Positions 1 through 64,000 of a DNA stretch of 64,000 nt are shown one piece after another. Location: contig NC_135553.1 of NCBI RefSeq assembly GCF_964340395.1, positions 17,100,501 to 17,164,500 on the forward strand, written 5' to 3'. The position numbers and the translations under genes were made by a program. Position 1 is the first letter of the stretch, and every line of letters begins with the position of its first letter. Below the pieces are notes generated by a model. It worked only from the letters and a program-made list of their open reading frames with translations, made no database searches and was not told the origin of the DNA. Origin of the DNA: Glandiceps talaboti. Its lineage: Eukaryota > Hemichordata > Enteropneusta > Spengelidae.

Positions 1-646
1 CTGATGTGCACTTAATATAGGCATCATGTTACTAAAAATACAGTACTCTTCCTGTGATCACAAACTTTGTTGCAGTATAAATGTTACTAGTATTTGAAAT
101 TATTGTCCATTTTGGCCACTACAGCACAACTACCAGTACATGTAGTTAAATGTATTGCCCTTGAATTTTTGAGTATGCCACCCACCCATTCACCCACCCA
201 TCCACCCACATCATAGACAGTGGAGAAGAAAAGGATGTGCAACTGCAGCATATCCTTTCAAATCAAGTGCTTGAATCCCTTTAACACCATGCCCATAAAT
301 GGATTAATTGTGTGGCGTCTGACTTGCAAGTGTGATAAGATCACGCTAAATCTCACAATTTGTGAGATGTGGTTATGCAAATATTGGCCATGACATGAGT
401 TCAATGACAACTCAAATCAAATATATCATAGTTTGTTGTACCATAGCCTTTGTATTCTTCGAGAGTTCATGATTACTTGTGATAATTAGTTAGTGATTTG
501 AGGGCTACAGCAAGTTGTTTCTTCTCCACTGTTTATGGTGAATATAACTCAATGTTGTATTTTGACCAAAGATTTCAGACGACGCCACCCACTCACACGG
601 TCACTGTAAATATAACTAAATGCGGTGTTTTGACCACTATTTTCAG
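1..646 (+). other. SNX8 intron (3' part) with small inverted repeat and duplicated acceptor
   Basis: This is the intron upstream of the first visible SNX8 exon. It holds a short CCCACC/CCATTC-rich run at 177-212. A weak inverted repeat, ACAGTGGAGAAGAAA near 219-233 and its complement near 518-532, may mark a small foldback element. At 541-590 there is a diverged copy of the acceptor region at 609-660. No coding exon was recognised. Confidence 0.5.
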
Positions 647-3882: not shown

Positions 3883-3987
3883 GGAATCTATGTGCAATTT
3901 ATATTATAGGTATATTAATGAAGTAACTTTTCAAATAGCAAAACTCAAGTTTTAAGTAAAATTTAAAAAGCAATTAAAAAAATATAT

Positions 3988-3993
3988 AATAAA
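3988..3993 (+). terminator. Candidate SNX8 polyadenylation signal AATAAA
   Basis: A canonical AATAAA lies 106 bp past the SNX8 stop codon, in an AT-rich stretch. Another AATAAA lies near 4973, so the 3' UTR could be longer. Confidence 0.45.
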
Positions 3994-4044
3994 TTCTGGC
4001 TCAGCCAAGGAATTTAGCAGACTAGGCATCTTTTGGGTGTAAAA

Positions 4045-8408: not shown

Positions 8409-8412
<4 letters not shown>

Positions 8413-8445
<33 letters not shown>
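8413..8445. repeat. CA microsatellite
   Basis: An uninterrupted (CA)n run in the intergenic space between SNX8 and POLD2. The surrounding 8007-9300 shows no gene that I can support. Confidence 0.85.
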
Positions 8446-8446
<1 letters not shown>

Positions 8447-10102: not shown

Positions 10103-10108
10103 TTTATT
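10103..10108 (-). terminator. Candidate POLD2 polyadenylation signal
   Basis: TTTATT on the plus strand reads AATAAA on the minus strand, about 240 bp past the POLD2 stop codon. Confidence 0.4.
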
Positions 10109-10346: not shown

Positions 10347-13300
10347 TTAAGCTTCATCCATTTCAACATCACTGTGTCCATTGGATTGAGGTGTGAGATG
10401 ACTGGAGAACATGACAGGTTCACATTGAAGTGTACGTAGATTAACAAGAACACATACACTGTTGTCTACAAACTTTGGTACAGTAATCAGCAGTACTTTG
10501 TGACCAGCTATACCTGCAAGAAACAAGAAACACATGAAGGATTGAGTGAAAACCACACAGTTTTTTTAGTCTGTTTACGATATATTCCCTGAAATCTCTC
10601 ATACCTAGGCTTGTAACTACAATTTGGAAAAAGCTGTTTATACAGTTTGAAAATCTCAATGTATAAATGCTCAATCAACTTGTCGTCACCATGGAGTTTT
10701 CAAAGATATGCAGATGACACATGCAAATGAAGTGTATGCAGATTAACACACGCTCAACTGCATGTGTTAATCTGCATATTCTTCATCTGCATATATTTGA
10801 ATACTCCATGGTAACGGCAATCTGATTGAGAATTTATACATTGAAATTTTCAAACCGCAATTACAGCAATTCTAGTTACCAGCTTAGGCCAAGATAATAT
10901 ACCGCAAGTCATTAGTGTCGTAAACAGGCTACAAACTTTGGTATGGAAATTTGGAATTAACAAATAAAATGTGATGAATTTGAACACTTACTATCAACAA
11001 CTTTAAACTGGAACTCAGGTTGATTTCCAGCAAAGTAGATGTGAGGGCATTCTGTCAGGATAAATGGATCCTCAGAATAGAACGGATAACAACCTGGAAA
11101 CAAACACATGAGATAAAAACAAATCATAACAAAGAGATATACATTAGATCCACAAAACTTTACGCTCAGTCTTACAAGAGATGCTTCTGAGAATTATGTC
11201 TTGTAAATGGTGTGTAATATATTGCAAAGATAGCGGTTTTCTGTATCTGGTGCTGTGGGTGCTGTAAGGTGTTCCATAGACTTACCGAATGTATCTGGTG
11301 CTGTGGGTGCTAAATGACAGCACTGTAAGGTTTTCTATAAACTCACCTAATGTATCTGGTGTTGTGGGTGCTAAATGACAACACTGTAAGGTTTTCTATA
11401 AACTCACCTAATGTATCTGGTGCTGTGGGTGCTAAATGACAGCACTGTAAGGTTTTCTATAAACTCACCTAATGCATTTGGTGCTGTGGGTGCTAAATGA
11501 CAGCACTGTAAAGTTTTCTATAAACTCACCTAATGCATCTGGTGCTGTGGGTGCTAAATGACAGCACTGTAAGGTTTTCTATAAACTCACCTAATGTATC
11601 TGGTGTTGTGGGTGCTAAATGACAGCACTGTAAGGTTTTCTATAAACTCACCTAATGCATTTGGTGCTGTGGGTGCTAAATGACAGCACTGTAAAGTTTT
11701 CTATAAACTCACCTAATGCATCTGGTGCTGTGGGTGCTAAATGACAGCACTGTAAGGTTTTCTACAAACTCACGTAATGCATCTGGTGCTGTGGGTGCTA
11801 AATGACAGCACTGTAAGGTTTTCTATAAACTCACCTAATGCATCTGGTGCTGTGGGTGCTAAATGACAGCACTGTAAGGTTTTCTATAAACTCACCTAAT
11901 GTATCTGGTGCTGTGGGTGCTAAATGACAGCACTGTAAGGTTTTCTATAAACTCACCTAATGCATTTGGTGCTGTGGGTGCTAAATGACAGCACTGTAAG
12001 GTTTTCTATAAACTCACCTAATGCATCTGGTGCTGTGGGTGCTAAATGACAGCACTGTAAAGTTTTCTATAAACTCACCTAATGCATCTGGTGCTGTGGG
12101 TGCTAAATGACAGCACTGTAAGGTTTTCTATAAACTCACCTAATGCATCTGGTGCTGTGGGTGCTAAATGACAGCACTGTAAGGTTTTCTACAAACTCAC
12201 CTAATGTATCTGGTGCTGTGGGTGCTAAATGACAGCACTGTCAGGTTTCTTTAAACTAACCTAATGCATCTGGTGCTGTGGGTGCTAAATGACAGCACTG
12301 TAAGGTTTTCTATAAACTCACCTAATGTATCTGGTGTTGTGGGTGCTAAATGACAACACTGTAAGGTTTTCTATAAACTCACCTAATGTATCTGGTGCTG
12401 TGGGTGCTAAATGACAGCACTGTAAGGTTTTCTATAAACTCACCTAATGCATCTGGTGCTGTGGGTGCTAAATGACAGCACTGTAAAGTTTTCTATAAAC
12501 TCACCTAATGCATCTGGTGCTGTGGGTGCTAAATGACAGCACTGTAAGGTTTTCTATAAACTCACCTAATGCATCTGGTGCTGTGGGTGCTAAATGACAG
12601 CACTGTAAGGTTTTCTATAGACTCACCTAATGTATCTGGTGCTGTGGGTGCTAAATGACAGCACTGTAAGGTTTTCTATAAACTCACCTAATGCATCTGG
12701 TGCTGTGGGTGCTAAATGACAGCACTGTAAGGTTTTCTATAAACTCACCTAATGCATCTGGTGCTGTGGGTGCTAAATGACAGCACTGTAAGGTTTTCTA
12801 CAAACTCACCTAATGTATCTGGTGCTGTGGGTGCTAAATGACAGCACTGTAAGGTTTTCTATAAACTCACCTAATGCATCTGGTGCTGTGGGTGCTAAAT
12901 GACAGCACTGTAAGGTTTTCTACAAACTCACCTAATGTATCTGGTGCTGTGGGTGCTAAATGACAGCACTGTAAGGTTTTTTCCAGGATATCCAATGTAT
13001 TTTCCATGGAACTAAATCTATAGATATCATCAATATTCTGTCCTGACGTCCCCAGGAATCTGTCAATCAAGTTATTAAACAATATTATAAAATATGACTA
13101 AAACAGTACAATACAGAAACTATGAATTAACCAATATATTACCAAAGATTACAGGCAGATGAAAACTAAATATTATTTTTGAATTCTATAGGTAAATGTT
13201 ACAAATTTTAGATGTCAACATAGACCATTGATAATGCACATATCTGTCAAATATCTCTGCCATCTATAAATGTGTAAAACTTGAAACAATTTGTGAAGAC

Positions 13301-16300
13301 ATTCAAACAGACTTGCAACTAACTCTTATTCACCCATTCTCTGTATTTCTAAAGAAACTCATACCAATTCTGAATTGAAAGATTTGAATGTTACACTTGC
13401 CAACATCAGACTGTGGATAAACAGAACCTGTTATAGTGTTACAAACAGGGAAAGTAAACAACTGAATTGGATTAATAACAATTGGCACAGCATGTCGGAA
13501 CAGCAGAGACTTGTATTACACACCATGGTTTGATAAGAACAGTTTTATGACATCTTTATGTGTACATGAAATGCCAGGGAACTAGAAATTTGTTTGTGAA
13601 TGTGAACTATTGTGTAAAGGTTATACAACTGTTCTTATCAAATGATGGAATGTAATACAAGTCTCTGTTGTTCCTACTTTCTGAGCCCAAGTGTTATTAA
13701 TCCAATTCATTTGTTTACTTTCCCTGTCTGTAACAGGTTCTGTTCGTCCGTGCTCTGATGTCGGCAGTTGTGTAAAAAGAAAAGAAAAGAAGGTTGGGTA
13801 GTTGAAGGATGAAGCAAAGGTTGTCTGTACCTGATTCCTTCTATATTGGCATCATATGGATTAGTGACTGTCTGTAACGTAGGATACACCATGGCTTGTG
13901 GAAACATACACCGATGTAATGGCTGCTGTGGTAAAGTATAGTTGGCGGGGTCGTACTCTCCAGGCATTAAATCCACTGGTACACAACTCTGTTAAACAAA
14001 AACAAAAATAATGCCAATCTCGTGGAGCACAGCTGTAGAGTTTGAGCAATGATTGATATACTATTTTCAGAACGTTTGATTTGTACAACATTATTCTGTC
14101 TTGGCAGGTAACTATGAACCTCAGTTCAGTTGTGAGGGTGAACTTACTTCATTCTATGTATCTCCTGACCTGACCGACCCTATATGTTTTCAATCTGGTG
14201 AATTTAAAAAAAAAATTGATGCCCTCTACAGCAGGATTAGAAAAAAAATCACAACTTCACCAATTGTCAGATGTTAAACTCACAAGTTTGTATCCGAGTC
14301 AAAATTACAGTTTACTGCTGAAATTCTGGAAACTCAATAAAACAAATGGTTCAAAATTTCCTTGACTTTTAATTGTCATTTCTAAGTCATTCAAACTGTT
14401 GAAGTACAAGTATGAATTGAACTCAGTACTAACATGTACTCATACACTTACTATTTTTACTTTTTTTTTCAAACTTTTTTTTTTCAAACTTTTTTTTTAC
14501 TGTTAACAGACCAACTGGCCCATCAGTTTTGATGTGTTACGACAAGAAACACTGAACTAAGTAGGGCTAGCCTGATAAAAACTTTACTGGTTTTATGATC
14601 TGAAAAATTGGCCAAGTTATGATATTGAGGATAAAGTTTATTTTCTATCTTTTACTGTTTGTGATTTTGTGATCATTGCATAAATCAGAAAAAAATTTCA
14701 CACATCAATGCTACTTCTAGATTTGACATTTTAAGAGAATTAAAATTTCCACCATGCCATTCTTGGATTTCAAATATCTCTTCAAATATATTTCTATAGA
14801 AAACAATTTGTCAGTTCTTTCCAAATACAATTTGTGCAACTAAATTTCAAGTATAAAGCAACTACTTGTTGGTTATCTTACCACTAACTGAGTTAGAACA
14901 TCATCCAATGTTTTGACACCTTCAACACTACCTGCAACTGTCTTCTTTGTCAGGTATTTTGCCTACAAATTTAAAATCAGAAAAGTGAAGTCAAAACAAT
15001 TTCAAAACCCTGTATGTAATACCTGTAATTGTCTCAAGCTGTAATTACTATGGTAGAGAAACCCCTTCTTTTAATGACGAGCTACTTTCAAATGTTCAAA
15101 TACATCAGCACATTAACCAATAACGCCCCCCCCAAAAAAAAAAAAAAAAAAAATTAAAAATTAAAAAAAAAAAAAAATTTTTTTTTTTAAAAATGTAAAA
15201 TTTGTTTAAAAATATTTAAAAAAAACAAAAAATAAACAACCAAACAAAAAATAAATTAAATAAATAAATGAATGAATGAATGAATGAATGAAAAAAAATA
15301 TTAAAGAGTACAGTTCGTGTCAAACTTTAAATATTCCACGGCATGTATTTGAACAGTATAACAAAAAAATTTAGTACAGTTTAGTCTAATAAAAAATGCA
15401 AACAATTTGACTACCTTTGTTAAATGTAGATGTTTATAAACCTACTAACCGTGGTGATGACGTCTTTGTCTTGTGTACTGCGACTGAGTGAATTACCAGC
15501 AATTATCACCCGTACAATATTAGAAAACTTCTCCTGATCCATCGTATCACCCAGCTGTCCCGTTACCATGTCAACCAGTAATTGTAAACCCATCAAATGG
15601 TGGCCTTCTTTGCCAATACCAAGTCCAGACATCAATGCTACATATCTGATGTAGAGACAAATTTCAGACATTGAAGTTTAAAATTAGATTCTTGTGAATT
15701 GATGATTAATTTCATTGCATGGTCGTTTGTGGCTTAAGTCCAGAACTCAAATTTGAAATTCAAAGTTAAGTAATGATCTATACTACTCATGGCACAGTAC
15801 AAATAGATGTGATATCTGTGATATGTATAACTTTTGATTTGATTGATTTTTTTTCACATTTCATTTACAGCTAATAATCCATAGCCACACAACTGACCAA
15901 GTGGTATAGATATGTAGAAATGACACCAAAGTTTAAAATTACCTATCAGATTCTGTCAGTGTTGGTGGTATCTGTTCTGGTAATTCAGCATAACAATAAT
16001 CATCCACTTGGAATTTACCGCCGTCTATCTCACAACCATACACTGTTACTATAATACCTGTCAGAAAATAGAAATGACACTCAAATTATCAGAGCATATC
16101 TTCTTCCCCCCACTGCACCACTAAGAAGCTTTCTTATTTTGATCTGCCACTTCATATCAGTATTAGGATATTACTGACTTTGTAAAAATGACCTGTGATT
16201 TCATTAGTATTGGCTATTCCTAAAAACTGACTTTTGATCTCAATAATAATTATTGATCTATGACAGTAATGTTTTTTTACCAACATGTGACATCATCAAT

Positions 16301-18243
16301 ACTGACCTGTGACATCATCAATACTGACACATGACATCATCAATACCTATCTATGACATCACTACAGACCTATGACATCATCAATACTGACCTGTGACAT
16401 CAATACTGACATATGACATCATCAATACCTACCTATGACATCATCAATACAGACCTATGACATCATCAATACACACCTGACATCATGAATGCTGACCTAC
16501 ATGTATGACATCATCAATATTGGCCTATGACATCATCAATACTGACCTATGACATCATCAATACAGACTTATGACATCATCAATACTGACCTATGACATC
16601 AAGACTGACCTATGACATCAATACAGACCTGTAAAATCAATACAGGTCTATGACATCATCAAAACTGACCTATGACATCATCAATACAGACCTATGACAC
16701 CACCAATATTGACCTATGACATCATCAACACTGACCTGTAACAGCTGTTTTCACATCTAGACAACCGACCAATATAATCCTTTGTAGTTCATCTTCTAAT
16801 ATCAGCTGATCTGACTCATCAGTAAATTTTTGTCTCACTGGTTGCGGCATCAAATTGTGCTGAAATGACAACAATAAACAAACAACAATAACAATAAAAC
16901 CAATGTTATAAGGAATTTTATGTCTCGTTGTAGATCTCGGGAGATATGCAACAACGGTTGGCAAACGAGATCATGGTTAAACTTTCCCCGTGGCCATGTG
17001 CGCTGATGTTGAGAACAACAGTGTTGCTAAGCATTTGATACTTTCAGCTTGACAACCCTCAAGTGGTTGCTATGGGTGCAATGGCTCACACAGGATCTCG
17101 TGAGATCTGCCGTGAAATGAAAAAAACGGCTTATTGTCCGAACTTCCCATTATTGCTATTCATTAGAAGTATATAAATGATCTCTTTTCTTTTTCAATTT
17201 AAGTTGTCTGTTTGTGGTTTATGTGCTCCAATAATTTACATCCTAAATCTTAGTAGTACAGATTATCAGAACACAACCAATATCTACACTTCAAAGTCTA
17301 GAGTAGACACACATTAGTTCAAACTGAAATTATTATACCTACCTCTTCACTAATCTCTCTTAGAATACTTGGTTTCAATTCCATATGTTTAAACAGTGTA
17401 CCAGTTACACAACACTTCTTGCCTATTCTCAGGTCACATAACTTCATGATGGAGATATCTGTTCCTGGGATGTTACAATAATTATGTCAAAAGTCAACAT
17501 TTGTCATAAAAAACTAGTTTGCTATTCACACACTGCCATTTCTATCCCTTTACCCCTTTCTGTTACTGGGGTTCCCCAACCTGAGCAAAAACACTGATTA
17601 TAGTGACACTGTCATGCAGAATGAAGACAAATATTGTGAATAGAGTGTATCATTCCCTCTATAGAGAAGGTTTATGACTGACACATACATGTACATTCCA
17701 CTATAAAGGTGTTGTTCTGAGGAACAGTTTGCCACCATCAATGAAATCAGATTTGAGTCAATGACTTCAGAATTTAGATTTTTTTTAAATGTTCTTCGCT
17801 GTCTTATAGTAACAGCTTGTCTTTAACTTTTTGTTAGTCCATTTTAATTAGTTTAGTGATATATTTTTTGCTTTGTCCATCTGTGGTATGTGTGTGTTAG
17901 TTTGTAATCTTGCAAGCAAGTTCGTTGGGATGAATACTTTGTACAAAAAAAATGAATAAACTCGATTTGAAAAAAAAAAAAAAAAAAAAAAAAGAGACTC
18001 AAGAAAGACGCACTAGAGCAGAAAGCGAAAGTAACTTTTCAAGCCATAATACCTACCCCATTTATTTTTAGCCGCTTTAGTTAGCATAGGTCTCATAGAC
18101 AGTAGACGTTCTGCATACACATGTGCATACTGACGACTGAAGCTTGAATCTCGCAGACGAAATCTGTCGGACAAGTTTTCATACGAACACGACGGACGCT
18201 GAAACTCGACTTGTTCCTCTGTTGGTTCCTTCAGTAGTGACAT
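10347..18243 (-). CDS. POLD2: DNA polymerase delta subunit 2 (p50), complete, 10 exons
   Basis: Minus-strand exons: 18057-18243, 17343-17464, 16736-16859, 15943-16057, 15450-15645, 14882-14962, 13831-13988, 12932-13059, 10992-11093, 10347-10513. They sum to 1,380 nt (459 aa plus stop); human POLD2 is 469 aa. Matching blocks include [75 protein letters not shown] and [14 protein letters not shown]. The family has an OB fold followed by an inactive calcineurin-like phosphoesterase domain. It is the B-subunit scaffold of the replicative polymerase in the nucleus. The ATG at 18243 gives the family's expected N-terminal start. Introns 3 and 8 contain minisatellites that include the 5' splice site, intron 7 a MITE and intron 9 a foldback element. 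Confidence 0.95.
10560..10935. mobile_element. Foldback (MITE-like) element in POLD2 intron 9
   Basis: Two arms of about 170 bp are inverted copies. CTGTTTACGA at about 10571 pairs with TCGTAAACAG near 10918. The inner arms share CCATGGAG, ATGCAGATGA and TGCAGATTAACACA before a short loop near 10750. Nothing is coded. It lies between the last two POLD2 exons without disturbing either splice site. Confidence 0.7.
11243..12978 (-). repeat. 61-bp minisatellite made of POLD2 exon 8 end plus its 5' splice site (28 copies and a truncated one)
   Basis: On the coding strand each unit is the last 47 nt of exon 8, ending CAGATACATTAG, plus the first 14 nt of the intron, GTGAGTTTATAGAA. The copy starting at 11291 and the one starting at 12938 are 1,647 bp apart, exactly 27 periods. 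A 48-bp diverged copy with the donor form GGTAAG starts at 11243. The first unit on the coding strand is the genuine exon end, with its donor at 12931. Most copies keep AG|GTGAGT; one reads ACGTGAG and one AGGTTAG. Point differences between units argue against an assembly artefact. Confidence 0.95.
13392..13774. mobile_element. MITE with long terminal inverted repeats in POLD2 intron 7
   Basis: The arms are about 165 bp and begin TACACAACTGCCGACATCAG on the reversed right side, with a slightly diverged left side. Shared inner blocks are ACAGGGAAAGTAAACAA, TTGGATTAATAACA and AGAGACTTGTATTAC. A sister copy lies at 63012-63399 in ZZEF1. No coding capacity. Confidence 0.75.
15120..15310. repeat. 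A-rich low-complexity tract with short AATG repeat
   Basis: A/T homopolymer-rich sequence grades into a TGAA/AATG tetranucleotide run at about 15264-15292, inside POLD2 intron 5. No further signal seen. Confidence 0.7.
16267..16735 (-). repeat. 21-22-bp minisatellite adjoining the POLD2 intron 3 donor
   Basis: About 20 units of the type ACCTATGACATCATCAATACTG fill much of intron 3. On the coding strand the unit reads GTCAGTATTGATGATGTCAT with an AG before the next GTC. The first unit starts exactly at the exon 3 donor (16735), so donor-like GGTCAGT recurs throughout. Some units are shortened or lack ATCATC. Confidence 0.85.
17800..17993 (+). mobile_element. Possible retroposed fragment with poly(A) tail in POLD2 intron 1
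   Basis: Plus-strand sequence runs through AATGAATAAACTCG into a run of more than 20 A residues ending near 17993, close to the exon 1 donor. A poly(A) tail next to an AATAAA-like signal suggests a retroposed 3' end. The source was not identified. Confidence 0.4.
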
Positions 18244-41400: not shown

Positions 41401-44400
41401 GTGCAGCCAAGAGCAAGCCCTCTAGTGTGCAGCCAAGAGCAAGCCCTCTAGTGTGCAGCCAAGAGCAAGCCCTCTAGTGTGCAGCCAAGAGCAAGCCCTT
41501 GACAGTACCTTTGGTGCTATACAACCTGTGGCCAATTTTAAAGTTACCAGAATTGCCTGAGCGTGTAACAGCTAGACTACAGAATTTACAGTCACTCTTG
41601 AAATATATGATTTATGCAGAATGTCAAACTTTTACAAATTAACAGTAAAGTCACTAGTCTGAACAAATTTTTATTAGTTATGATTAATAATGTAAACTTG
41701 TCAGAAACTTGTTTACACCAGTCCTGACAAATATAGAAGTGATTGTCACAATGGAAATTATCTGAAAAATCTTTACATCAACTGAATAAATCTTGTGGTT
41801 GGAATGTTTTCTACATAGTAACAGTCCAGTGATGAGCGAGAACACTCTTCAAAAAGTGATAGTTGACATGCTGCAAATATTTGCACAAAGATCGTTAAGA
41901 CCAAATAATGTCTTAAACAGGAAAAATTGTACTAGGATGACAAGGAAAAAGACAAACATTACTTTGAAAAAAGTAATAACAGCCATGAAGCCACCCATAT
42001 TTTCAAACCATAACGTCAGTATCAAACATTTTCCCTTCAGCTTACCTTTCAAGACATGATGCTCCAAATGTAAACAAGAACTGTGCAGTTGTAGAGCCAT
42101 CATATTTGACAACAGCACTGCTATCGTCTTTCTGCTGTTCATCAGTCTTAATGGCCTTGTCACATACTTCAGGTGTTAGTCGTTGTAAAACTTGACCAAG
42201 TAATCCTAATGCCAAGTGTTGGGTGTTATTATCATGGCCCTTCTCTCCTCTGTAAATAATAAATAATGGGAATTCAGGGGTTTAGTTTACTTTGAATTTC
42301 ACTGTAATGTGAACACATACCTTGCTATAGCAAACAACATTGGTAAGATGGTATCTACTTTGAATTTCACTGTAATGTGAACACATACCTTGCTATAGCA
42401 AACAACATTGGTAAGATGGTATCTACTTTGAATTTCACTATAATATGAACAAATACCTTGCTATAGCAAACAACATTGGTAAGATGGTATCTACTTTGAA
42501 ATTCACTATAATGTGAACACATACCTTGCTATAGCAAACAACATTGGTAAGATTGTATCTACTTTGAATTTCACTGTAATGTGAACACCTACCTTGCTAT
42601 AGCAAACAGCATTTGGTAAAATTGTATCTACTTTGAATATTTCATTATAATGTGAACACATACCTTGCTATAGAAAACAACATTTGGTAAGATTGTATCT
42701 ACTTTGAATTTCACTGTAATAAATGTGAACACATACCTTGCTATAGCAAACAACATTGGTAAGATGGTATCTACTTTGAAACTCTCCATGACATGTGCAC
42801 ATGCTGCCGTCTTGCCATTCTGTGAAAAGAAACAGAAAAAGACCTAATAAACATGTCATGCTTGTTCACTGGTACATAGTTGATTGATTTTCCGGTTCCA
42901 AGATGCATTGCGCGAGAGGACGGCTTTTATGTTGTTACAGTTAGTCTTGTTTTGTCTTTATTACGTTGGAAATAAAAATTTTATCAGGAAATGATAAAAA
43001 GACATGTTGTATATAACAAAGATTAAACACCATCAATGATTGAGAGGGATTTTACGGGTGAACCCAGGGTAAGGTCAGGTGACAACCACCCCCCACACCC
43101 ACCCCCGAGCTGAGTAGCACATGCAAACCCCTCAGCGTGTACACAATACATGGCGTAATGCATATTGGAACTGGCAACAGGTCTATTGCAAGGACACACC
43201 TGAAGGACACTTGGCCTAGCTTTCAATATAATAACAATTTTCCACAGATTAAAGCCTTTAACAACCACTGTATCAAACTGTATTCTGATTCTGATTCTGT
43301 ATTCAACATCCCTAACCCCAATTTCAGTTTGTCCGAGTTCTTAAATGAGCAATGTATAAACCAATACATTATACCCATCATTCTTGCATTTTATGATATC
43401 TTGTATCTAAGTCTAATAGAAATATTACATTTTGACATTGAAGACACAGTTACATACCTGTGGTAACATTGAACCTAGCAATCCCAGAATTCTCTCCTGT
43501 GAACAGCCAGCAAAGGCTACTTCATGTGCATCAGCAGATGATGTACTGGTAGCCTTTCTGTCATATACAACTGTTAAAACAAAACAATGTTAACAGTCAA
43601 TCATGAGTCAAATATTACTAGTAAACTTTTCAAAAGGGGGCCAAAAATTACTTATTGCTGTCCACAAAAATCCTTATACACGTGTATGGAGGAACAGATA
43701 GAAAGGTATGCTTCACATGGCAGATAGACTGGTAAAAAGGCTTAAACTGACAGACAGACAGACAGACAGGCAGACAGACTGGTACACAGGCACACAGAAA
43801 GACCAGTAGTACTGATGAAAAGGAGACAAACCTTCTTATCAGCATTGTCTATTTCTTCAAACCTCCATGTATAATTTCTTTGTTAAAACTCGCATTAGTT
43901 TTATGAACATCTTACATTTAGTAGACACTGTCATTGATTCCAATCATTTCACCAATACCATAATTTACACAAAATTATTTGTTATCTTATTTCACTATCT
44001 ACCTCCATCAATCTTATCTTTAGTCTCAGCATGGTCTTCTTCTGTTCTGGCTTTTTTACTCTTTGGTTCTTCTTCCGATTCCTCTGTATCATCCTTAGCA
44101 ACGACTCTCTTATCATCTTCTGCTGCAGTTGCCTTGACATCTTTAACTGCAGCTGTCTCGTCACCTCCCTTAGCTTCAGCTATCTTCCCATCTTCCTCTG
44201 CCACTGCTGCTTTGTCGACTTCCCCACTAACTTTGTCCTCACTCTTTTCTGTACTTGTTCCACTGTCTCTTTTTGCTTCATCTTCCTTTTTGTCTTCTTT
44301 TGTTGCAGCCACCTCTTCATCTTTTTTCACACCACTAACTTCATCTTTCTTATCTCCATCAGCAACCTTATCTGGAGTGGTTTCATCACTTTTTCCCTCC

Positions 44401-47400: not shown

Positions 47401-50400
47401 AAGTGTCATTACTTTTTCCCAATTTTTCGTTAATTATGCTTGAGGAGGTATATTACAATTATTAAACCCCATAGGTGCTAGAACTTCCCCTAACTATGGC
47501 AAACATTTACTAGTTTCAGGATATTAATAGGGATCCTGTATATTGCTATGTTAAACAGATTGTAAATTTGAATTGCAGCATACACACACTAGCCTAGCCT
47601 AAATCTGACTAGTGTAAAGGAGAACGAAATATGCTATGATTTAAATATTTTTCTATTTTTCAACTTACATGAGGTGAACCATTTCATGGTCATCATTATG
47701 TCCTTCTGGTTTCACACCACCAAGATAACATGTATTACACAAATCCATGTCTTCGCAGTGTAAACAACGATACCGTTGCCCTGGTAACAAGACAGCACAC
47801 CCATCACAGGTGATTTCCACATCTAACATATCACAGTATCTTGCGACAAACATGTGCATTGCCTGTATAGGTGATGAAAATACACTCATTTAGTGATGAC
47901 TCTCGGTTTCCTAATATTCATTCTCGCAAACCAGAACTGATATTCTTCCACGACACTGCGAAATATCAAATGGTAAAGGAAGGTGCCGTAAAAAGAGGCT
48001 GTGGTTTACAATGATGCCTTATATTTTACCTTGTGATTGGCTTCAAATGTAAGGTAACAATAGCTTAATCAAATTTGCTTACTTAGTCCTTAACTAAATT
48101 TGTTGGGGAATTTCTATTTCAGATTTTTTTATCAATATTCCACTTACTCTATATTGAAAATTACTTAGTTATCTAATATCTAGACATGACTGACATGGAT
48201 GATGTCACATTTCGTATCACTTGAATGACCTTTTGAGCTGTGTCAGCAAATCCAATGGAAGGAAAGAACTGTCAAACATACATACATAGGCTGCCAGAAA
48301 GATAAACAGCTGATGGACAGTACTACCAAAACTATCAGAACATTTCTGATCAGCCCTGGCGTTATCAATCATAGTATACCACTGTATAAACCCAGCTGTA
48401 CACTTCCAACTATATACTCAACTCCACTTACCCGTTTCTGATCAGCCCTGGCGTTATCAATCATAGAATACCACTGTATAAACCCAGCTGTACACTTCCA
48501 ACTATATACTCAACTCCACTTACCCGTTTCTGATCAGCCCTGGCATTGTCAATCATAGTATACCACTGTATAAACCCAGCTGTACACTTCCTAAGCCAAT
48601 CTTTACATTGTTTATAATCTTCTACCTCCTTAGCATGCCCTTTCTCACTCACAACACTGTCTCTCAGACCAACAGAAGCTGAGAAAAAACCCCACAAAAA
48701 TTAGACAACAAGGAAACTATCCTGCTATCAAGTAGACTTTAATACTCATTACATCAAAATACAATGTTATACCATAATACACTCTACCCACTCAAGGTAT
48801 CAAGTATTTCTAGGTATTTTGATACAGAATTATGGAGCTAACAACAACCTTAGGTTGAGCGAGGAAACATAATATTCCACCTCGGTAAATTAGAACCATT
48901 TAGAATGAATAATAAAGTTCTTAACATTCCTCTGTTCCATCTAATTTTGACCTTTTATGCAGCTAAACAAGTTGTACATTGATGGTATAATCACAGTCCC
49001 TCTTATCATCAATACATACTTAACTACACTGATCCCATAGTTATTTTGTTCATTCTTCATTATGTGATCTAGCTATACAAAATTCTGACATATAGTAGTG
49101 GTAGTAAAATTCATTTAAGAACAGGGTAGCCAGGAAACAACAAAACGCTGATTTCCACCTGGGCCCTGTTACCACTCATTAAAACATTATATGATACAAT
49201 GTCTTCTTAATGTTTGTATTTACCTACTCACAACAGGTACTGTTTTTACCGTTTCTAAAATCTGATACCACAAATTGATATGACTGATAAAAAGTAGTAT
49301 CGGTAATGCTTTAAAAATTGTAGTTTTTACACTTACAACAATTCACACTAACAACGTCCTAGAGGCACTGCTAAGATGTTCATTTCAAAATTTGATAGAG
49401 GAAAGCTAGAAAGTAGCTAATTCCAAACTATGTTATTGAAAGTGTTGTTTTTTTAATCATAGGTACCTGTCTATTTTTCCGGTAAAAATAACTGGGAGAT
49501 ACTCACTTTTTGAGATTTGCAGTAGAAGAGCTGGTATTTGTAGATCAGCTACAAAATGTAGATCATAGGGTTGCCAATCAACATCTAGTAAATGTAGTAG
49601 AAGTGCCTGCATACACTCAAATGCTGACTGGGTAGATCTGAAATAGGCAACAGAAACTCATTGGAGTATAAAGTAACAGGGCTTGCATACATTCAAATGA
49701 ACATGAAAGTAACAACTGACAGAAATCAATATTTCTGGTGACATGGCTTATCATGTTGACTTTCAGGAACCTAAAATTACCAAAGTTACTAGACCATGGA
49801 GTATAACATAACATAACATAACATAACATAACATAACATAACATAACATAATATAACATAACATAACATAAGTGATAACATAACATAACATAACATAACA
49901 TAACATAACATAACATAACATAACATAACATAACATAACATAACATAACATAACATAACATAACATAACATAACATAACAACGTATCTGCTTAATTACCT
50001 GGGATGTTTAGTTTTATCAAAGGAGATGACAGCTTCTGATAATCTTCTCACCAAAGCATAATATGACCTCCGAACTTTACTTTCTAAATCCAATCCACAG
50101 CCTTCCAGTCTGATAGCATAGTGTCTGCAAATAAAACACCATCTAATAGTCACATATCAGCAGTAAAGCAAAACTAATTACAGCCTTCCAGTCTGATAGC
50201 ATAGTGTCTGCAAATAAAACACCATCTAATAGTCACATATCAGCAGTAAAGCAAAACTAATTACAGCCTTCCAGTCTGATAGCATAGTGTCTACAAATAA
50301 AACACCATCTAACAGTCACATATCAGCAGTAAAGCAAAACTAATTACAGCCTTCCAGTCTGATAGCATAGTGTCTACAAATAAAACACCATCTAATAGTC

Positions 50401-53400
50401 ACATATCAGCAGTAAAGCAAAACTAATTACAGCCTTCCAGTCTGATAGCATAGTGTCTGCAAATAAAACACCATCTAATAGTCACATATCAGCAGTAAAG
50501 CAAAACTAATTACAGCTTGACCATTGAATGATCACCGAAAGACTGCATATCGTATACATTTTATCTTCAAATGGAAATTCAATTTTGTTGGTAAACCAGA
50601 GTATATAACTTTCGTCATCAGTGAATAATATGCATACATTCATGCTTGCATTATTTTGTACTGAAGCAGACAATTTCAAACTTATAAATCGTTTTGGGTG
50701 ACCGAATAGTCTTTACATTCGACCTTGCAATCCATGTCATACATGCAGCAAATCATTATAGGATATTGAAGATATTGGAACCAATACTTCCAATTGAGAT
50801 ACAGAAATAATTTGTTCATCACAGTAAAGACATACATTTCATTGAAAATTAGTTTTACTTATATTAGTGTATAATATTTGCAAATGTTGTTGAGTTCAAA
50901 TGTATAAATCTTACTTACACAGGGAGATATTTCTGGACACCAAGCATTCTTGGAGAATACACCAAATCTTACTTACAATGGGAAATGTTTCTGGGCACCG
51001 AGTATTTCTTGGAGAATTCACCAAATTTTACTTACACAGGGAAATGTTTCTGGGCACTGAGCATTCTTGGAAAATTCACAGAATTTTTACTTACAAACAG
51101 AAATGTTTCAGGGCACCAATGCTTCTTGGAAAATTCACCAAACTTTACTTACACAGGGAAATGTTTCTAGGCACTGAGTATTTCTTGATTTTTACTTAGA
51201 AATGGAAATGTTTCTGGGCACTGAGTATTTCTTGGAAAATTCACCAAATTTTTAGTAAGAAACGGAAATGTTTCAGGACACCGAATGTTTCTTGGAAAAT
51301 TCACCAAACTTTACTTACACAGGGAAATGTTTCTGGGCACTGAGCATTTCTTGGAAAATTCACCAAATTTTTAGTAAGAAACGGAAATGTTTCAGGACAC
51401 CGAATGTTTCTTGGAAAATTCACCAAACTTTACTTACACAGGGAAATGTTTCTGGGCACTGAGCATTTCTTGGAGGAAGAGAACACTGGGTACTTGAAAG
51501 AAATGTGGATTGCCATTAATTCTTAGAAACTCAGCAGCAAACATAAAGATATCAGCTAATGCCTGGGCTCTTTGACATCTCTGATCTAATAGGTGACGAA
51601 CTCTGTAGATAGGAAGAACAGTTAAAAATGTCACAAATTAGTTTCATTTGGCATTGTACAATAACATAACCCAAGTTACAATTCTTTTTTCTTTGGACAG
51701 ACATTATTTTTGCTAAAAATATGCAACCATACATTTAGGGATACTTCCGTAAATTTGAGATTTGGGTACAGTTTGTTATGCATTGTACACAGTAAATAAT
51801 GTGATTCTTGAAATGGTTTTTAGATCTATGAAGGTGAAACTATCATCATTACTAAAGATGAAATCTTGCATGTGCTTTATTAAGGAAAACACAATCTATG
51901 AATTCACAAAAATTTCATCTATTGTGCTGTAGCCATGACGTGGTAAATTCTCATGTGTCATTTATTAATAGGGGTCTTTAGATTAAGAATTGTTCATGAC
52001 ATGATGATCCCATCAGTGATATACAAATTAGGGTAAAAAATCTATAATTTCAAAATCACTGAGCAGATTGAGCTGAAATTTGGTGGGAATGTTCTTAGAG
52101 GTGTTTAGATTACAGCAAGTCATTTTTTGGATCAGGCACCTAATTATCAATTTTGCTCACGAGATGGAAAATGAATTCCATCCTCAGTCTTTGTATCTCT
52201 GGTATAAAATCAATATATTTGTACATTTTGAAATACTGTATTCTGTGGTGCTTTTGTCCTCAGTCAGACTCAGTGAAGAGTGTATACGTAATGTCAATCT
52301 CTATGTTCTTACCTTTCTCTGGTTAGTAGGGCATTCTTTACAAAGTCCATGACAAGTTTGAATGATGGATACCTGTCATAACTACTATCTTCCTCTGTCA
52401 GAATATACCGACCCTGTAAAATTCATATTTGTTGTATCGTCAAAATTGGAAAATTGGTAAAATGACAAGGCAATGCTAAAATCATTGTGGAATTACATTA
52501 CATTCAAAGAGGTGGTATTCATCCATTTAACATTACATCATCTACCTATACTCCCCCGTTGAGTGGAATGATCTGCTCCAGAAGTGTACTGCATTATAAC
52601 AACATTTATTGCATCACACCAATAGTGGGAGTAATATAGGGGTGGTCATGTTAAATAGTGTGTAACTTTCAAAGTGTGATCTAAAAAAGAAAACAACAAC
52701 CTCCAGTTTAGTACATCACTCAATACACATAGGATAATAATGATGATGCATATAAATGACTTACTTTGAGATTGGTATCTCTATCTGTAGAATCTTGGGA
52801 TGGTAGTCGGTTTCTTCCAATTTGATAAGATCGACTTCTCATCAAATTTCTTTTACTTTTCACTTTTTCCTATGTGGGTAAAAAGAATTCAACTCATGTC
52901 ATTTGTTATTGTGCATCAACAGACAACAAATACATTAGTAGAATAGAATTGATACTTGTATAGTAGTAGTAGTAATAGTGAAGTTACCTTATTGGAATCA
53001 AGAGACTAATTAGGGGAACATCTAAAAACCACAAGACACATGATAACAACTAAACAATCACAGGTCCTGGCCAGAGAAAAAAAATACTGGCAAAAGAAAA
53101 TACAGGAATCCATCAATTAAAGAGAACACCAGCTGTCCCTCAACCATGACTGTGGATACCATCTCCCACCTATTTACAACAGTCTACTGTCAGGTGATTC
53201 CATTGGGAGGTCACCTGACCAAACAGTATAACATCATTACGCTGATGACCTCAGAGTGATTTGGACGAAAGCTTTGTAGTCACTTCAAAAACTAAATTAA
53301 ATAGGGTAACTTCTCTACTTTAATAATATACTACACATTACCACTATCGAGATTCTAAAATACTGTAATTTTTAAAATCAAAGTTATCCTTTTATCCTTT

Positions 53401-62400: not shown

Positions 62401-64000
62401 ATTTTAGATATTTTGGGGTTTTTTTTTTACTATTTTCAGATTTCAATGTATATCAGATATGACGTCAGTTAGAACGTAGTTCATCTCCACAAATTAAAGT
62501 GGCCATATGGATAAGGATTTGGTATTTATTTTGGATTTTTGATTTATGAAACAGTTTTATCATGGCTTCCTACTTGGAAAATCAATGTGAAACAACATTA
62601 GCAAGTCTGTATTTGTAACTCAATACATTGCAAAAAGCTAAAAAATGTGTAAAAAGTTTGTTATTGTATGTACAATAACACACATTTTACACATTTATTA
62701 ATCTTTTGCAATTTATTGAGTTACAAACACAGACTTGGTCTATGTTTTTGTTTTTCATTTTGATTTTTCAAGTAGGAAGCCAAGATAAAATTGTTTTATA
62801 AATTAAAAATCCAAAATGAACACAAATCCTCATCCATATGGCCTCTTTAATCTTAGACTACATCTTTACAGGAGTTCTATTTTCATGTTCTAACACATGA
62901 ACACAGTCTATATGTTTTCTTGGGTTTTCATGTTGCATGTCTCTTTCCTTTGATATTACTTAGTCCCTGTGATAAAAATCGTCTGTATTTTACTTTGAAA
63001 TGATGAGAACATGTACAACTGCCGACATCAGACCATAGACGACCAAAACCCTTTAAAAACAGGGAAAGTAAACAATTGAATTGGATTAATAACACTTGGC
63101 TCAGCATGTTGGAAATACAGAGACTTGTAAGTTGTATTACATTCAATCATTTGATAAGAACAGTTGTATGGCCTCTTAACATAATAGTTCACCGTTCACA
63201 CACAAATTTCCAGTTCCCCTGGCATTTCATGTACACTTAAAGAGGCCATTAAACTGATCTTATCAAACCATGGTGTAATGCAAGATCTCTGCTGTTCCAA
63301 CATGCTCAGCCAAGTGTTAATAATTCATTTGTTTACTAAAGTCTATCCATGTTTGTAACAGGTTTTGTTTGTCCACGGTCTGATGTCCGAGGTTGTAAAT
63401 TGAGGTGTTTGACCAAATCACATGATGTGTGTGTCCAATAACTTACCAACTGTCTGAGTGATGTTGCAAGGAAAGATTTTTCAAGTTGATCAATCAAGGG
63501 GTCTTTATTTTTTATCTTGCACAAAGCATCAATAATTGAACAGGCTTTGTCACTCTGCATACCACAATCTGATGTACAAACAAAGGCATTACGTAAGTAT
63601 ACATTGTTTTGAAATAGCAATAATTTACTCAGTTTAGTAACTGTAATACAGAAATTATGGTAGCAGAGAAAAAATATGAGCAATCTATCACTACAGATAT
63701 TATACTTCAAGCATATCACTAATGTCCCCCTTATTTGTAATTTTTTGTCTCGTTTCTGATAAAGATTTTTTATGAAGTTGACCTAAACAGTTAACTAACA
63801 CTTCAACAACACATATGACAAACTTATTTCAAAGAAGTCCTGACAGTTTTGTTACATGTTAATGACTTACATCTGAGTATCCTGGCTACAGCTGGTTCTC
63901 TATGTTTAGTAAGTTTGGTTACTTACATCTGAGTACCATGGCTACAGCTGGTTCTCTATGCTTAGTAAGTTTGGTTACTTACATCTGAGTATCATGGTGA
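27114..64000 (-). CDS. ZZEF1: ZZ-type and EF-hand domain protein 1, last 45 exons (about 1,953 aa; 5' end outside window)
   Basis: Minus-strand exons: 63983-64000 (partial), 63447-63568, 62083-62205, 61291-61463, 60842-61007, 60451-60562, 57650-57801, 56279-56367, 55808-55929, 54988-55067, 54402-54483, 53597-53670, 52765-52869, 52313-52413, 51438-51602, 49999-50124, 49507-49637, 48524-48678, 47669-47862, 47142-47255, 46746-46789, 46122-46238, 45461-45562, 44003-44452, 43458-43570, 42737-42819, 42046-42249, 40859-41030, 40005-40136, 39373-39484, 38811-38881, 37920-38039, 36530-36853, 34291-34391, 33736-33885, 33507-33585, 32781-32876, 31783-31959, 30987-31130, 30505-30676, 29773-29860, 29469-29525, 27841-28027, 27548-27619, 27114-27206. 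Every junction keeps frame. Human ZZEF1 is about 2,961 aa; the missing N-terminus would hold the EF-hand and DOC/APC10 domains. Diagnostic: two adjacent ZZ fingers (GGVKPEGHNDDHEMVH in the first) and two CUB-like segments. ZZEF1 ZZ domains are reported to bind the histone H3 tail. At least seven introns carry copies of their own splice junctions. Confidence 0.92.
28596..28911. mobile_element. MITE with AGATAGACACAAACTAAA-type ends, most complete copy
   Basis: The left end CAGCCTTCAGTTTACTAAG pairs with the reversed right end CAGCCTTTGGTTTACTAAG. Both run into an ATAGACACAAACTAAA element and end with CTATTG. Relatives lie at about 32300-32550, 36228-36490 and 39241-39352. All are in ZZEF1 introns. 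Confidence 0.7.
29469..30676 (-). other. ZZEF1: ZZEF1 second CUB-like segment
   Basis: Exons 30505-30676, 29773-29860 and 29469-29525 encode AIFLTVKFDARCATEDGCDE, ARDKWIDFDVPGDTLYYKF and CSTNDWGYKFTVTGGK. This is the same strand order (VKFD...C...DW/EWGYKFTV) as the upstream CUB-like segment. It lies near the C-terminus, as in vertebrate ZZEF1. Confidence 0.7.
30180..30504 (-). repeat. Degenerate copies of ZZEF1 exon 40 end and donor
   Basis: Four decayed copies of the exon 40 3' end and following intron occur, each 35-100 bp apart. They contain TGGATCAATTTTGATG or variants. Donor positions read CAG|GTTGGT (about 30283), CAG|GTTAGT (about 30200) or a lost GGGGAG (about 30405). A CCA trinucleotide run (about 30451-30479) lies next to the genuine donor. 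Confidence 0.75.
31480..31784 (-). repeat. 60-bp in-frame array of ZZEF1 exon 38 end plus donor
   Basis: Four extra units follow the genuine donor (31782), with donors near 31722, 31662, 31602 and 31542; a decayed unit lies at about 31480. Each unit reads GTGAGTTACGTACCGATC, then an acceptor-like ATACAG, then 30 nt of exon end finishing TTTAAG. The period is 60, so the frame stays open through the whole array. Each unit would translate as VSYVPIYNIQRAEDKGSFFK or variants. Confidence 0.92.
32300..32550. mobile_element. MITE, diverged copy of the AGATAGACACAAAC family
   Basis: The left end AATCAAGCTTTTGG...AGATAGACACAAAC pairs with the reversed right end AATCAAGGTAAGATAGACAC. Located in ZZEF1 intron 37. 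Confidence 0.6.
33174..33493. repeat. TGAA tetranucleotide microsatellite
   Basis: More than 300 bp of (TGAA)n with ATGG and AACA interruptions, in ZZEF1 intron 36 just downstream of its donor. The Phe/Ile/His/Ser-rich open frames here are repeat translations, not genes. Confidence 0.95.
33650..33735 (-). repeat. Single 74-bp duplicate of ZZEF1 exon 35 end with a GC donor
   Basis: The sequence at about 33655-33712 repeats the end of exon 35, including TAGCTAATAACACCAATAT. The genuine donor reads AA|GTAAG, while the copy reads AA|GCAAG, a GC-type donor. Confidence 0.8.
34535..36214. mobile_element. 1.68-kb element with terminal inverted repeats in ZZEF1 intron 33
   Basis: The ends ATATTATTCCCC and GGGGAATAATAT are exact inverted copies, followed inward by TTCAGC/GGCTAAATGAAGG-like matches. 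A second inverted pair lies inside: ATCAGGGGCATGAGGCAA near 34689 and TTGCCTCATGCCCTTG near 36075. A small relative with only the ends lies at 61694-61847. The core at about 34990-35900 is unusually rich in CpG. A 24-bp copy of the start of ZZEF1 exon 33 sits at 34615-34638. No transposase is recognisable; an open frame at 35606-35971 matches nothing I know. Confidence 0.6.
36228..36490. mobile_element. Truncated MITE of the AGATAGACACAAAC family
   Basis: It starts with GAGCCTTCGGTTCTCTAAGA and AGACACAAACTAAAAC, then shares CATGTTGATACAACAGTGAT with the copy at 39241-39352. The reverse-orientation part includes TCACAGGGTGATTA, which matches the copy at 28596. It abuts ZZEF1 exon 33. Confidence 0.55.
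36530..36853 (-). other. ZZEF1: ZZEF1 Ser/Asp-run exon
   Basis: A 324-nt, phase-0 exon encodes 108 residues. These include a lysine-rich stretch (KTKPIPKKKH) and then a run of serines followed by six aspartates, coded by AGT and GAT trinucleotide repeats. The Ser-then-Asp order resembles casein kinase 2 target stretches (inference). Repeat length is likely polymorphic. Confidence 0.75.
37406..37682. mobile_element. MITE with internal minisatellite in ZZEF1 intron 32
   Basis: The ends ACAGAACCCCATG and CATGGGGTTCTGT are inverted, with matching inner CAGTGTTCTCTG/CAGTGTTTTCTG blocks. The left arm has been expanded into about four units of 28 bp containing GTATTTGCACAGTGTG (37440-37545). A relative lies at 44694-44875. 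Confidence 0.65.
38282..38475. repeat. CA microsatellite, about 190 bp
   Basis: (CA)n with a few GA/TA interruptions, in ZZEF1 intron 31. It generates His/Thr and Cys/Val open frames on both strands that are not genes. Confidence 0.95.
40270..40545. repeat. About 55-60-bp tandem repeat with TGATTGGTGG
   Basis: About five units of the type GCTGATTGGTGGAAACACAT with ATTATGTCATGTACTGGTTA lie in ZZEF1 intron 28. No splice site is included in the unit. Confidence 0.75.
41113..41505. repeat. 26-bp minisatellite, about 15 copies
   Basis: The unit is GTGCAGCCAAGAGCAAGCCC followed by TCTAGT, with AAG/CAG and TAG/TCG/TCA variants. It lies in ZZEF1 intron 27. It is much more GC-rich than its surroundings and reads open in several frames, which is a repeat artefact. 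Confidence 0.92.
42300..42738 (-). repeat. 68-73-bp array of ZZEF1 exon 26 end plus donor (six extra copies)
   Basis: Donors at about 42663, 42592, 42524, 42456, 42388 and 42320 repeat the genuine GCAAG|GTATGT at 42736. Each unit carries about 46 nt of exon end (ATACCATCTTACCAATGTTG and onward) and about 22 nt of intron ending ATTACAG. The four intervals among the five distal copies are exactly 68 bp; those near the exon are 71 and 73. Confidence 0.92.
44003..44452 (-). other. ZZEF1: ZZEF1 Lys/Glu/Asp-rich low-complexity exon
   Basis: A single 450-nt exon, by far the largest of the gene, encodes about 149 residues made almost only of K, E, D, A, T, V and S. It includes the possible nuclear-localisation stretch PKSKKAR. 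It is probably disordered. Open frames on the other strand are mirror images of this biased composition. Confidence 0.8.
44694..44875. mobile_element. MITE relative of the 37406 element
   Basis: Starts CACAGAACCCCACGG and ends CACAGGATTCTGT in inverted orientation, with the shared inner GCAGTGTTCTCTGTGG. Located in ZZEF1 intron 23. Confidence 0.5.
45207..45339. repeat. Short foldback repeat in ZZEF1 intron 23
   Basis: TTATAGCATCCATATCAAGT at 45207 pairs with ACTTGATGTGGATGCTATAA at about 45320-45339. The arms of about 35 bp flank a 65-bp loop. It resembles a very small MITE. Confidence 0.65.
47142..47862 (-). other. ZZEF1: ZZEF1 tandem ZZ zinc fingers
   Basis: Exon 47669-47862 encodes CDGC, RYRCLHC, DLCNTC and HNDDHEMVH. 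This is a full ZZ set of three CxxC pairs plus two His. Exon 47142-47255, with the next exon 46746-46789, encodes CDNC, IHCNVC, DLCYGC and SHKSFHE, a second complete set. ZZ fingers bind two zinc ions in a cross-brace. In this family they read histone H3 N-termini (published for the human protein). Confidence 0.88.
48345..48523 (-). repeat. 91-92-bp duplicates of ZZEF1 exon 18 end plus donor
   Basis: Two partial copies follow the genuine exon end (donor 48523). The first keeps GATCAGAAACGG|GTAAGTGG near 48431. The second, near 48347, reads GATCAGAAATG and has lost the donor. About 62 nt of exon are included in each. Confidence 0.88.
49804..49981. repeat. ACATA pentanucleotide microsatellite
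   Basis: About 35 copies of ATAAC/CATAA with two interruptions, in ZZEF1 intron 16, 17 bp from the exon 16 donor. The Met/Leu/Cys/Tyr/Val open frames are translations of the repeat. Confidence 0.95.
50125..50515 (-). repeat. 83-bp array of the ZZEF1 exon 16 acceptor and exon start (four extra copies)
   Basis: CAGCCTTCCAGTCTGATAGC recurs at 50098 (genuine exon), 50181, 50264, 50347 and 50430, exactly 83 bp apart. On the coding strand each unit supplies a pyrimidine-poor TTATTTGCAG or TTATTTGTAG acceptor plus about 30 nt of exon start, then returns to intron sequence. Confidence 0.93.
50915..51441 (-). repeat. About 60-bp array of ZZEF1 exon 15 end plus donor (nine extra copies)
   Basis: GAAATGTTTCTGGGCACTGA-like exon sequence recurs about every 45-62 bp from 50925 to 51442. 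The intron part reads GTAAGTAAAGTTTGGTGAAT in the better copies. Several copies keep TGTGTAAGT; others have CTTACTAAA or similar and no donor. A higher-order two-unit pattern (124 bp) is visible at 51203-51442. Confidence 0.88.
51955..52130 (-). mobile_element. Fragment of the 1.4-kb repeat element in ZZEF1 intron 14
   Basis: It shares ATGATCCCATCAGTGATAT, CACTGAGCAGATTGAGCTGA and AATTTGGTGGGAATGTTCTT with the internal units of the elements at 6317 and 57834. The ends are missing. Confidence 0.65.
57834..59060 (-). mobile_element. 1.4-kb repeat element family, copy 2 (reverse orientation)
   Basis: It begins ACTGCCAATGGCGTTGTAGC and ends AACAAGTTCAGTTGTGCTAA, the mirror image of the copy at 6317-7721. 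It has the same CATAGCAACAGCC-type units, the same AACTACTG...GAAATTTGGTGGG-like units and a CA/GT microsatellite (58965-59003). It starts 33 bp from ZZEF1 exon 7. Confidence 0.75.
60085..60336. mobile_element. TTAA-type MITE, copy 2
   Basis: It runs from TTAAAGTGGTCATATGG to CGGCCACTTTAA, with the inner arm match TTTTATAAATTAAAAA. Located in ZZEF1 intron 6. Same family as 6271-8006 and 62494-62850. Confidence 0.7.
60451..62205 (-). other. ZZEF1: ZZEF1 first CUB-like segment (4-exon block)
   Basis: These exons encode VLRTWNIESTHNYENN, ITQIFFCPGATSFHVEFDTR, CETEKRYDYLEFTDARG and FHSDSSNNEWGYKFTVTA. The order (hydrophobic strand, acidic FD, YDYLEF, then SNNEWGYKF) is that of the CUB-like region of ZZEF1-family proteins and is the most conserved block in the window. 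Exons 61291-61463 and 60842-61007 hold nearly all of it. A MITE at 61694-61847 and MITE copies on either side leave the exons intact. Confidence 0.8.
61694..61847. mobile_element. Short MITE, about 155 bp, ZZEF1 intron 3
   Basis: Arms of about 60 bp: TTATTATTCTCCAATATTTT on the left pairs with the reversed right TATTATTCCTCAATATTTTT. Both run on to TTCAGCCA and GACTTAAGG/GACCTAAGG. The ends match the 1.68-kb element at 34535-36214. Confidence 0.7.
62494..62850. mobile_element. TTAA-type MITE, most complete copy
   Basis: TTAAAGTGGCCATATGGATA at the left and CCATATGGCCTCTTTAA at the right, with arms longer than 100 bp including AGTAGGAAGCC / GGCTTCCTACTT and ACACATTTTACACATTT matches. ZZEF1 intron 2. 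Confidence 0.75.
63012..63399. mobile_element. Long-armed MITE, sister of the POLD2 intron 7 copy
   Basis: The left end TGTACAACTGCCGACATCAG pairs with the reversed right end. It shares ACAGGGAAAGTAAACAATTG and GTGTTAATAATTCATTTG blocks with 13392-13774. ZZEF1 intron 2. Confidence 0.7.
63860..63998 (-). repeat. 56-bp repeats of a ZZEF1 exon end plus donor at the window edge
   Basis: CTCAGAT|GTAAGT recurs with donors at 63982, 63926 and 63870, exactly 56 bp apart. Each unit includes the exon-like ATAGAGAACCAGCTGTAGCC. The genuine exon extends beyond the window, so the true copy number and the real donor are uncertain. Confidence 0.8.

Follow-up and report, generated by a model that had tools for sequence, protein, structure and literature searches.

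Repeat arrays at exon boundaries of SNX8, POLD2 and ZZEF1

We analyzed a 64,000-nucleotide stretch of the genome of the hemichordate Glandiceps talaboti (assembly GCF_964340395.1, 590 Mb in 47 contigs; contig NC_135553.1, forward strand, positions 17,100,501 to 17,164,500), hereafter the window. It contains three genes, SNX8, POLD2 and ZZEF1, in which tandem repeats abut or straddle the edges of exons and carry copies of the splice site into the neighboring intron. An earlier note, made from the letters alone, had assigned the gene names and drawn attention to eleven spans of this kind. The assignments were upheld by comparison with known proteins. POLD2 matches the human chain 6s1m_B (E=1.3e-105), SNX8 contains PX and Snx8_BAR domains, and ZZEF1 contains APC10 and ZZ domains together with an EF-hand match under the Pfam cut-off. 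A Pfam check also identified adjoining DAGK, IQ, LCM and HECT genes.

Gene models came from a hidden Markov gene finder that trained itself from a seed of exons in the window, and they were then corrected by hand. This entailed dropping 18 of 129 predicted exons and adding or correcting 4, with 1 later re-corrected; in the HECT gene, 7 of the 9 candidate exons were added by hand. Three of the 12 junction-straddling arrays described below, at donors 12931, 31782 and 78919, depend on hand-added or hand-corrected exons. The exon at donor 12931 is backed by human POLD2, and the exon at donor 78919 was called in unmasked sequence and came out shorter when the sequence was masked. ZZEF1 also has a candidate exon at 44003-44452, which would encode approximately 150 residues rich in Lys, Glu, Ala and Asp.

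At all 11 spans, repeats border on an exon edge or cross it, but they are not of equal quality. Eight are strong minisatellites by Tandem Repeats Finder (TRF), and three (541-646, 30180-30504 and 33650-33735) are weak or degenerate. A further four junction-straddling arrays were found in the flanks of the window with default TRF settings, and the cases, weak ones included, number 15 in 4 genes within about 120 kb. Both types of boundary are affected, with 9 donors and 3 acceptors in the default search and 11 and 8 in a sensitive search. Each array has the exon-attached copy at one of its ends, from which the copies extend into the intron at donors and upstream at acceptors (Table 1). The period ranges from 22 to 124 bp over the 12 straddling arrays and the unit sequences are unrelated between loci, in agreement with the proposal that the arrays arose as independent events.

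Table 1 Repeat arrays in the window and the exon boundaries that they touch (window coordinates).
Gene	Position	Strand	Description	Basis
SNX8	535..677	+	Weak duplication giving 2 copies, spaced by 68 bp, of the exon 647-819 acceptor; 9/28 bases around the site differ	Sensitive TRF
POLD2	11262..12980	-	61-bp unit, 28 copies, spanning the donor of exon 12932-13059; 49 bp of the exon lie inside the array	
POLD2 exon	12932..13059	-	Donor repeated in the array; exon ends ...APDTL/G	Alignment to human POLD2; hand-added to gene set
POLD2	16288..16737	-	22-bp unit, 21 copies, degenerate, starting at the donor of exon 16736-16859; 9 recognizable decoys	
ZZEF1	30180..30504	-	End of exon 30505-30676 and its donor in irregular, degenerate copies; 2 recognizable decoys	
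ZZEF1	31487..31817	-	60-bp unit, 5.5 copies, spanning the donor of exon 31783-31959	
ZZEF1	33650..33735	-	Donor region of exon 33736-33885 in a single diverged copy 74 bp away; 8/28 bases differ; donor GT changed to GC	
ZZEF1	42288..42780	-	68-bp unit, 7.1 copies, spanning the donor of exon 42737-42819; 6 decoys, GT in all	
ZZEF1	48343..48591	-	92-bp unit, 2.7 copies, spanning the donor of exon 48524-48678; 1 recognized decoy, identical around the site	
ZZEF1	50097..50516	-	83-bp unit, 5.1 copies, spanning the acceptor of exon 49999-50124; 4 decoy acceptors, AG in all	
ZZEF1	50906..51474	-	59-bp unit, 9.8 copies, spanning the donor of exon 51438-51602; GT kept in 6/9 recognized decoys	
ZZEF1	63865..64000	-	In-window part of an array reaching 64602; units ~56-60 bp; donor of exon 64563-64722; GT kept in 11/12 decoys	

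Frequency of junction-straddling arrays relative to chance

To judge the number of straddling arrays we used a founding-unit null, in which one unit of each array's own period is placed randomly in genic sequence, excluding positions wholly inside an exon. The sample comprised 140 kb of modelled genes with 236 junctions, and the array set was restricted to periods of at least 18, with low-complexity units removed and overlaps reduced to the best row. Over all genes, default TRF yielded 41 arrays, 12 of which straddle a junction where 4.08 would be expected (P=0.00038). Within the window the count is 7 of 15 genic arrays (1.72 expected, P=0.00056). Since the window was chosen for its striking look, the figures from outside it are the fair ones, and there the excess is weak (5/26, 2.32 expected, P=0.073). 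The sensitive search gave 19 of 114 arrays over all genes (8.24 expected, P=0.00042), 10 of 46 in the window (3.81 expected, P=0.003) and 9 of 68 outside it (4.39 expected, P=0.028). Thus the enrichment at junctions that the earlier note had anticipated holds for the pooled genes, with the larger share of the excess contributed by the window, and is only suggestive outside the window.

Two earlier versions of the test used less complete gene sets. The first, on gene models prior to curation, returned 5 of 20 arrays in the window (2.06 expected, P=0.045) and nothing significant in the left flank (2/24, 1.19 expected), the right flank (2/29, 1.88 expected) or C10 (1/9, 0.61 expected), a 50-kb sequence with prominent retroelement open reading frames (ORFs) and no curated genes. 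This test, whose result was weaker, was replaced because exons beside the arrays had been mis-called. The second gave 12 of 38 over all genes (3.96 expected, P=0.0003) and 8 of 22 in ZZEF1 (2.84 expected, P=0.0035), with no significant excess in the genes other than POLD2 and ZZEF1 (2/14, 1.09 expected, P=0.30).

A genome-scale scan had also been suggested. We ran a motif test that counted separate loci in which a 9-mer recurs 39-69 bases apart; it covered contig C1 and, of C2, the first 23.88 Mb, where the lists for all five motifs are complete. The donor motifs CAGGTAAGT and AAGGTAAGT gave 11 and 13 loci, and the controls TGAATGGAC, GACTAGATG and AGTATGAGA gave 3 each (24 against 9). Relative to occurrences in the genome (7510 and 8922 for the donors; 5869, 4241 and 5247 for the controls), the donors are 2.49-fold over the controls (P=0.011), where the loci are defined by motif alone. 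Raw pair counts genome-wide did not separate the donors (683 and 849) from the controls (279, 642, 886, 141, 83 and 223). Separate loci were counted because raw pair counts are swayed by long arrays, as for control GACTAGATG with 886 pairs; this switch was decided after the counts had been seen, and only three of the control motifs were listed by place. Eight 3-kb loci selected by a donor pattern spaced at 17 bp gave no clear picture. The motif test is in modest agreement with the gene-based test.

Taken together, the arrays are likely to have a modest preference for junctions. It is possible, though we would not bet on it, that there is no preference at all, and that in a genome rich in minisatellites a reader with an eye for exons noticed those arrays that touch a junction. 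The P value of 0.073 outside the window, the 29 of 41 default and 95 of 114 sensitive arrays that do not straddle, the flanks in the first gene set and the unseparated raw pair counts all fit with this explanation; the pooled excess, the sensitive count outside the window and the locus counts of the motif test speak against it. A preference could conversely reflect a raised birth rate of duplications at exon edges, through transcription-linked breaks, R-loops, nucleosome edges or short repeats at splice motifs. The excess over the founding-unit null and in the motif test would be expected from such hotspots. However, the excess is small once the window is set aside, arrays could be favored by the donor motif as such and not by where it lies, and the lean toward donors is only slight in the sensitive search. 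We consider hotspots a tentative explanation, with about a third of the weight.

Decoy splice sites within the arrays

The additional copies of a splice site, here called decoys, were recognized where an ungapped comparison of 28 bases showed no more than 9 mismatches, and because of this limit the decoy counts are lower bounds. Scores were calculated from generic splice-site matrices. The POLD2 array at exon 12932-13059 holds 27 decoy donors, all with GT, of which 24 score the same as the real donor (10.7) and the remaining three score 6.8, 6.0 and 9.2. The core GT or AG bases are intact at 126 of 130 positions in the copies of 8 arrays. The build-up of decoy splice sites that had been proposed is thus borne out. 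In the same 8 arrays, divergence from the real copy is lower at splice-site positions (24/627) than at other positions of the unit (240/3569), with a Fisher P of 0.0055 that is indicative only, as the copies do not count as independent. The trend is opposite in the acceptor array at 50124, where 2 of 60 splice-site positions and 1 of 272 other positions are changed.

In POLD2, the exon-attached unit is identical to the units at +122 and +731, and variant units recur along the array. The recurring variants and identical internal units point to unequal exchange along the array, which would take in the exon edge.

We then read the consequences of using the nearest decoy in 9 donor arrays. The resulting extension is not a multiple of three in 6 of them, and of the three that are (ZZEF1 31783, ZZEF1 64563 and the IQ-motif gene), only ZZEF1 31783 lacks a stop codon. 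Use of the nearest decoy would therefore cause a frame shift or a stop in 8 of the 9. In the ZZEF1 31783 array the 60-bp units preserve the reading frame, which stays free of stops in the first four units downstream, and a choice among donors at 31487-31817 could add 20 residues per unit.

The arrays might be functional, with decoys that regulate splicing, that give rise to length isoforms (as in ZZEF1, by 20 residues per unit) or that serve as spare sites. We regard this as improbable. The lower divergence of decoy splice-site positions and the open ZZEF1 array are what it would predict; against it stand the non-independence of the copies, the opposite trend at 50124 and the disruptive outcome of the nearest decoy in all but one of the donor arrays read.

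Micro-exons and intron gain

The earlier note had proposed that many units, with an AG before the exon fragment and a GT after it, could act as micro-exons, and that duplication of such AG/GT segments seeds new introns or exons. For each of 78 decoys, drawn from 13 arrays, we scored the best partner site that its unit offers, using as a reference the 117 acceptors and 119 donors of the curated exons; the arrays at 33736 and 78920 and micro-exons under 9 nt lay outside this scoring. None of the 78 decoys had a partner that reached the 25th percentile of real sites. The best partner exceeded the 5th percentile in 5 of the 13 arrays (POLD2 12932, ZZEF1 30505, 42737 and 48524, and SNX8 647), and in these a faint use as micro-exons would be possible judging from the scores. 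AG/GT occurs in 5 of 11 donor arrays and is thus not general. Scored as an acceptor, its AG reaches 1.7-4.8, where the 5th percentile of real acceptors is 5.0, and by these scores dual-specific AG/GT sites were set aside as weak. In some units an AG and a GT do flank the exon fragment, but the pair they form scores poorly, so the micro-exon idea gains little support.

Tandem duplication is a recognized route of intron gain (PMC3443670) and has been proposed for boundary-spanning minisatellites in amphioxus (PMC3087553). Duplication of an exonic segment with AGGT was not seen among our arrays, whose units straddle or abut existing boundaries. All arrays lie beside such boundaries, and in this one genome, with no relative compared, we identified no gained intron at any of them. 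The AG/GT sites, the partners above the 5th percentile and the open ZZEF1 unit could be taken in favor of seeding, yet with the partner and acceptor scores as they are we regard it as highly improbable for these loci.

Relationship to amphioxus mirage minisatellites

The earlier note had described this density of junction repeats as unfamiliar. Such repeats are in fact known from amphioxus, where they were named mirages in Adh3 and reported in the globins BflGb6 and BflGb9, in TnC and in PGBD5 (PMC3087553, PMC3902484), and the 2010 paper already proposed them as a source of new introns (PMC3087553). The arrays described here resemble them in that a tandem array spans an exon-intron boundary of either type with locus-specific units, and in that many, although not all, of the copies keep their splice signals. 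They differ in the hemichordate host, in the concentration of 15 cases within ~120 kb as compared to gene-by-gene reports, and in the number of copies, which reaches 28. In BflGb6 the units at the cluster boundary were reported to be excluded from homogenization, whereas the exon-attached unit of POLD2 seems to join in exchange. In amphioxus, splicing seems to be normal despite the mirages, judging from the Adh3 data and from RT-PCR of the globins (PMC3087553, PMC3902484).

Two other systems share single features. Intron gain by tandem duplication likewise creates extra splice sites (PMC3443670), but there duplication of an exonic AGGT segment yields a new intron, whereas here an existing boundary is spanned and, per the gene models, only intron sequence is added. 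The repeats of UBC and VCX3A similarly consist of tandem units each with AG/GT (PMC10809524); the UBC monomers are coding and their site is both donor and acceptor, in contrast to the minority of donor arrays here with an AG/GT that scores poorly as an acceptor. In the literature searched, which most subscription-journal papers lay beyond, we found no report of mirages in a hemichordate; the papers returned for minisatellites in this phylum dealt with lancelet PGBD5 and with Merlin transposons. The finding is genuine, the kind of object is known from amphioxus and the lineage is apparently new.

We consider it probable that the arrays are mirage minisatellites that grew at existing exon boundaries and are tolerated, with neutral or nearly neutral growth as the most likely mode. 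A short tandem duplication would happen to span an existing exon-intron boundary, and the duplicated unit would then expand into the intron by unequal exchange or slippage. The transcript would still be spliced normally, because the exon-proximal site is intact and the decoys have no good partner: under exon definition, an isolated decoy donor would lack a good upstream acceptor of its own. Wrong choices would be selected against or their products destroyed, because the nearest decoy so often shifts the frame or introduces a stop. For these reasons arrays could be tolerated at boundaries, unlike a duplication inside an exon.

Several points weigh against this interpretation. The excess outside the window is weak, and one of its five straddling arrays crosses the window edge. 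Tolerance through exon definition is carried over from a general principle of splicing. Partner sites rise above the 5th percentile in five of the arrays scored. The lower divergence of decoy splice-site positions fits poorly with plain tolerance, and could be explained by homogenization with the constrained exon copy or by use of the decoys.

A bolder form of the mirage interpretation holds that boundaries are birth sites of minisatellites, such that a few percent of junctions (12/236) carry near-perfect decoys that coevolve with the exon edge by exchange and are ignored by the spliceosome, forming a standing experiment in splice choice and a reservoir of new exon ends. We regard this form as rather unlikely.

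An assembly artefact is extremely improbable: a head-to-tail mitochondrial contig in the same assembly and an amphioxus draft assembly of the BflGb6 mirage that was itself called aberrant could hint at one, but the copies differ by point changes and indels, the units differ between arrays, and amphioxus trace reads and resequencing support such structures.

If the mirage interpretation is correct, the arrays are a natural test of the choice between near-identical splice sites. With up to 27 near-equal decoys ignored in a conserved gene, they would provide a ready-made series of copies for testing splice choice. Decoys that mostly score as the real donor and yet are ignored would imply that exon context, and not site strength, decides splicing at these sites. 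Were mirages to occur in a second phylum of deuterostomes, at what may be a few percent of its junctions, they would cease to be a peculiarity of amphioxus and become a more general source of variation in splice sites, and a many-locus test of the old idea that arrays seed introns would become possible.

Other features of the window and the genome

Between POLD2 and ZZEF1, at 19572-20637, lie plus-strand ORFs whose product we take to resemble a NERD-type protein. Units of 114 bp that are alike by eye occur in the window at 7043-7602 and 58032-58411 and on C6 at offsets 71402-71784 and 137862-138067; these arrays are probably a dispersed repeat that carries a minisatellite. Also on C6, 107 to 141 kb to the right of the window start, is a tandem cluster of near-identical genes, presumably relatives of ACC-synthases or aminotransferases.

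Contig C40 (51,222 bp) consists of the mitochondrial genome repeated approximately three times head to tail, with three COX1 matches spaced by 15,435 bp. The codons AAA, AGA and AGG are absent among 3454 codons of ten genes, and the G+C content is 53%. ATA appears at several positions that we take to be Ile in human or sea urchin, and at some that we take to be Met. The 24 ARAGORN predictions include a tRNA-Lys (anticodon CTT) that lies between COX2 and the ATPase genes; a second Lys prediction (TTT), on the opposite strand inside ND5, was taken as a false hit. In Balanoglossus mitochondria, ATA encodes Ile, AAA is absent and the anticodon is CUU; in echinoderms AAA encodes Asn, and in cephalochordates ATA encodes Met and the anticodon is UUU (PMC3121625, PMC2697986). 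By these features a hemichordate is the most likely source of the contig, and a cephalochordate is very unlikely. A simple match is contradicted by gene order, as CYTB lies between ATP6 and COX3, unlike the ND5-adjacent CYTB described for Balanoglossus and Saccoglossus.
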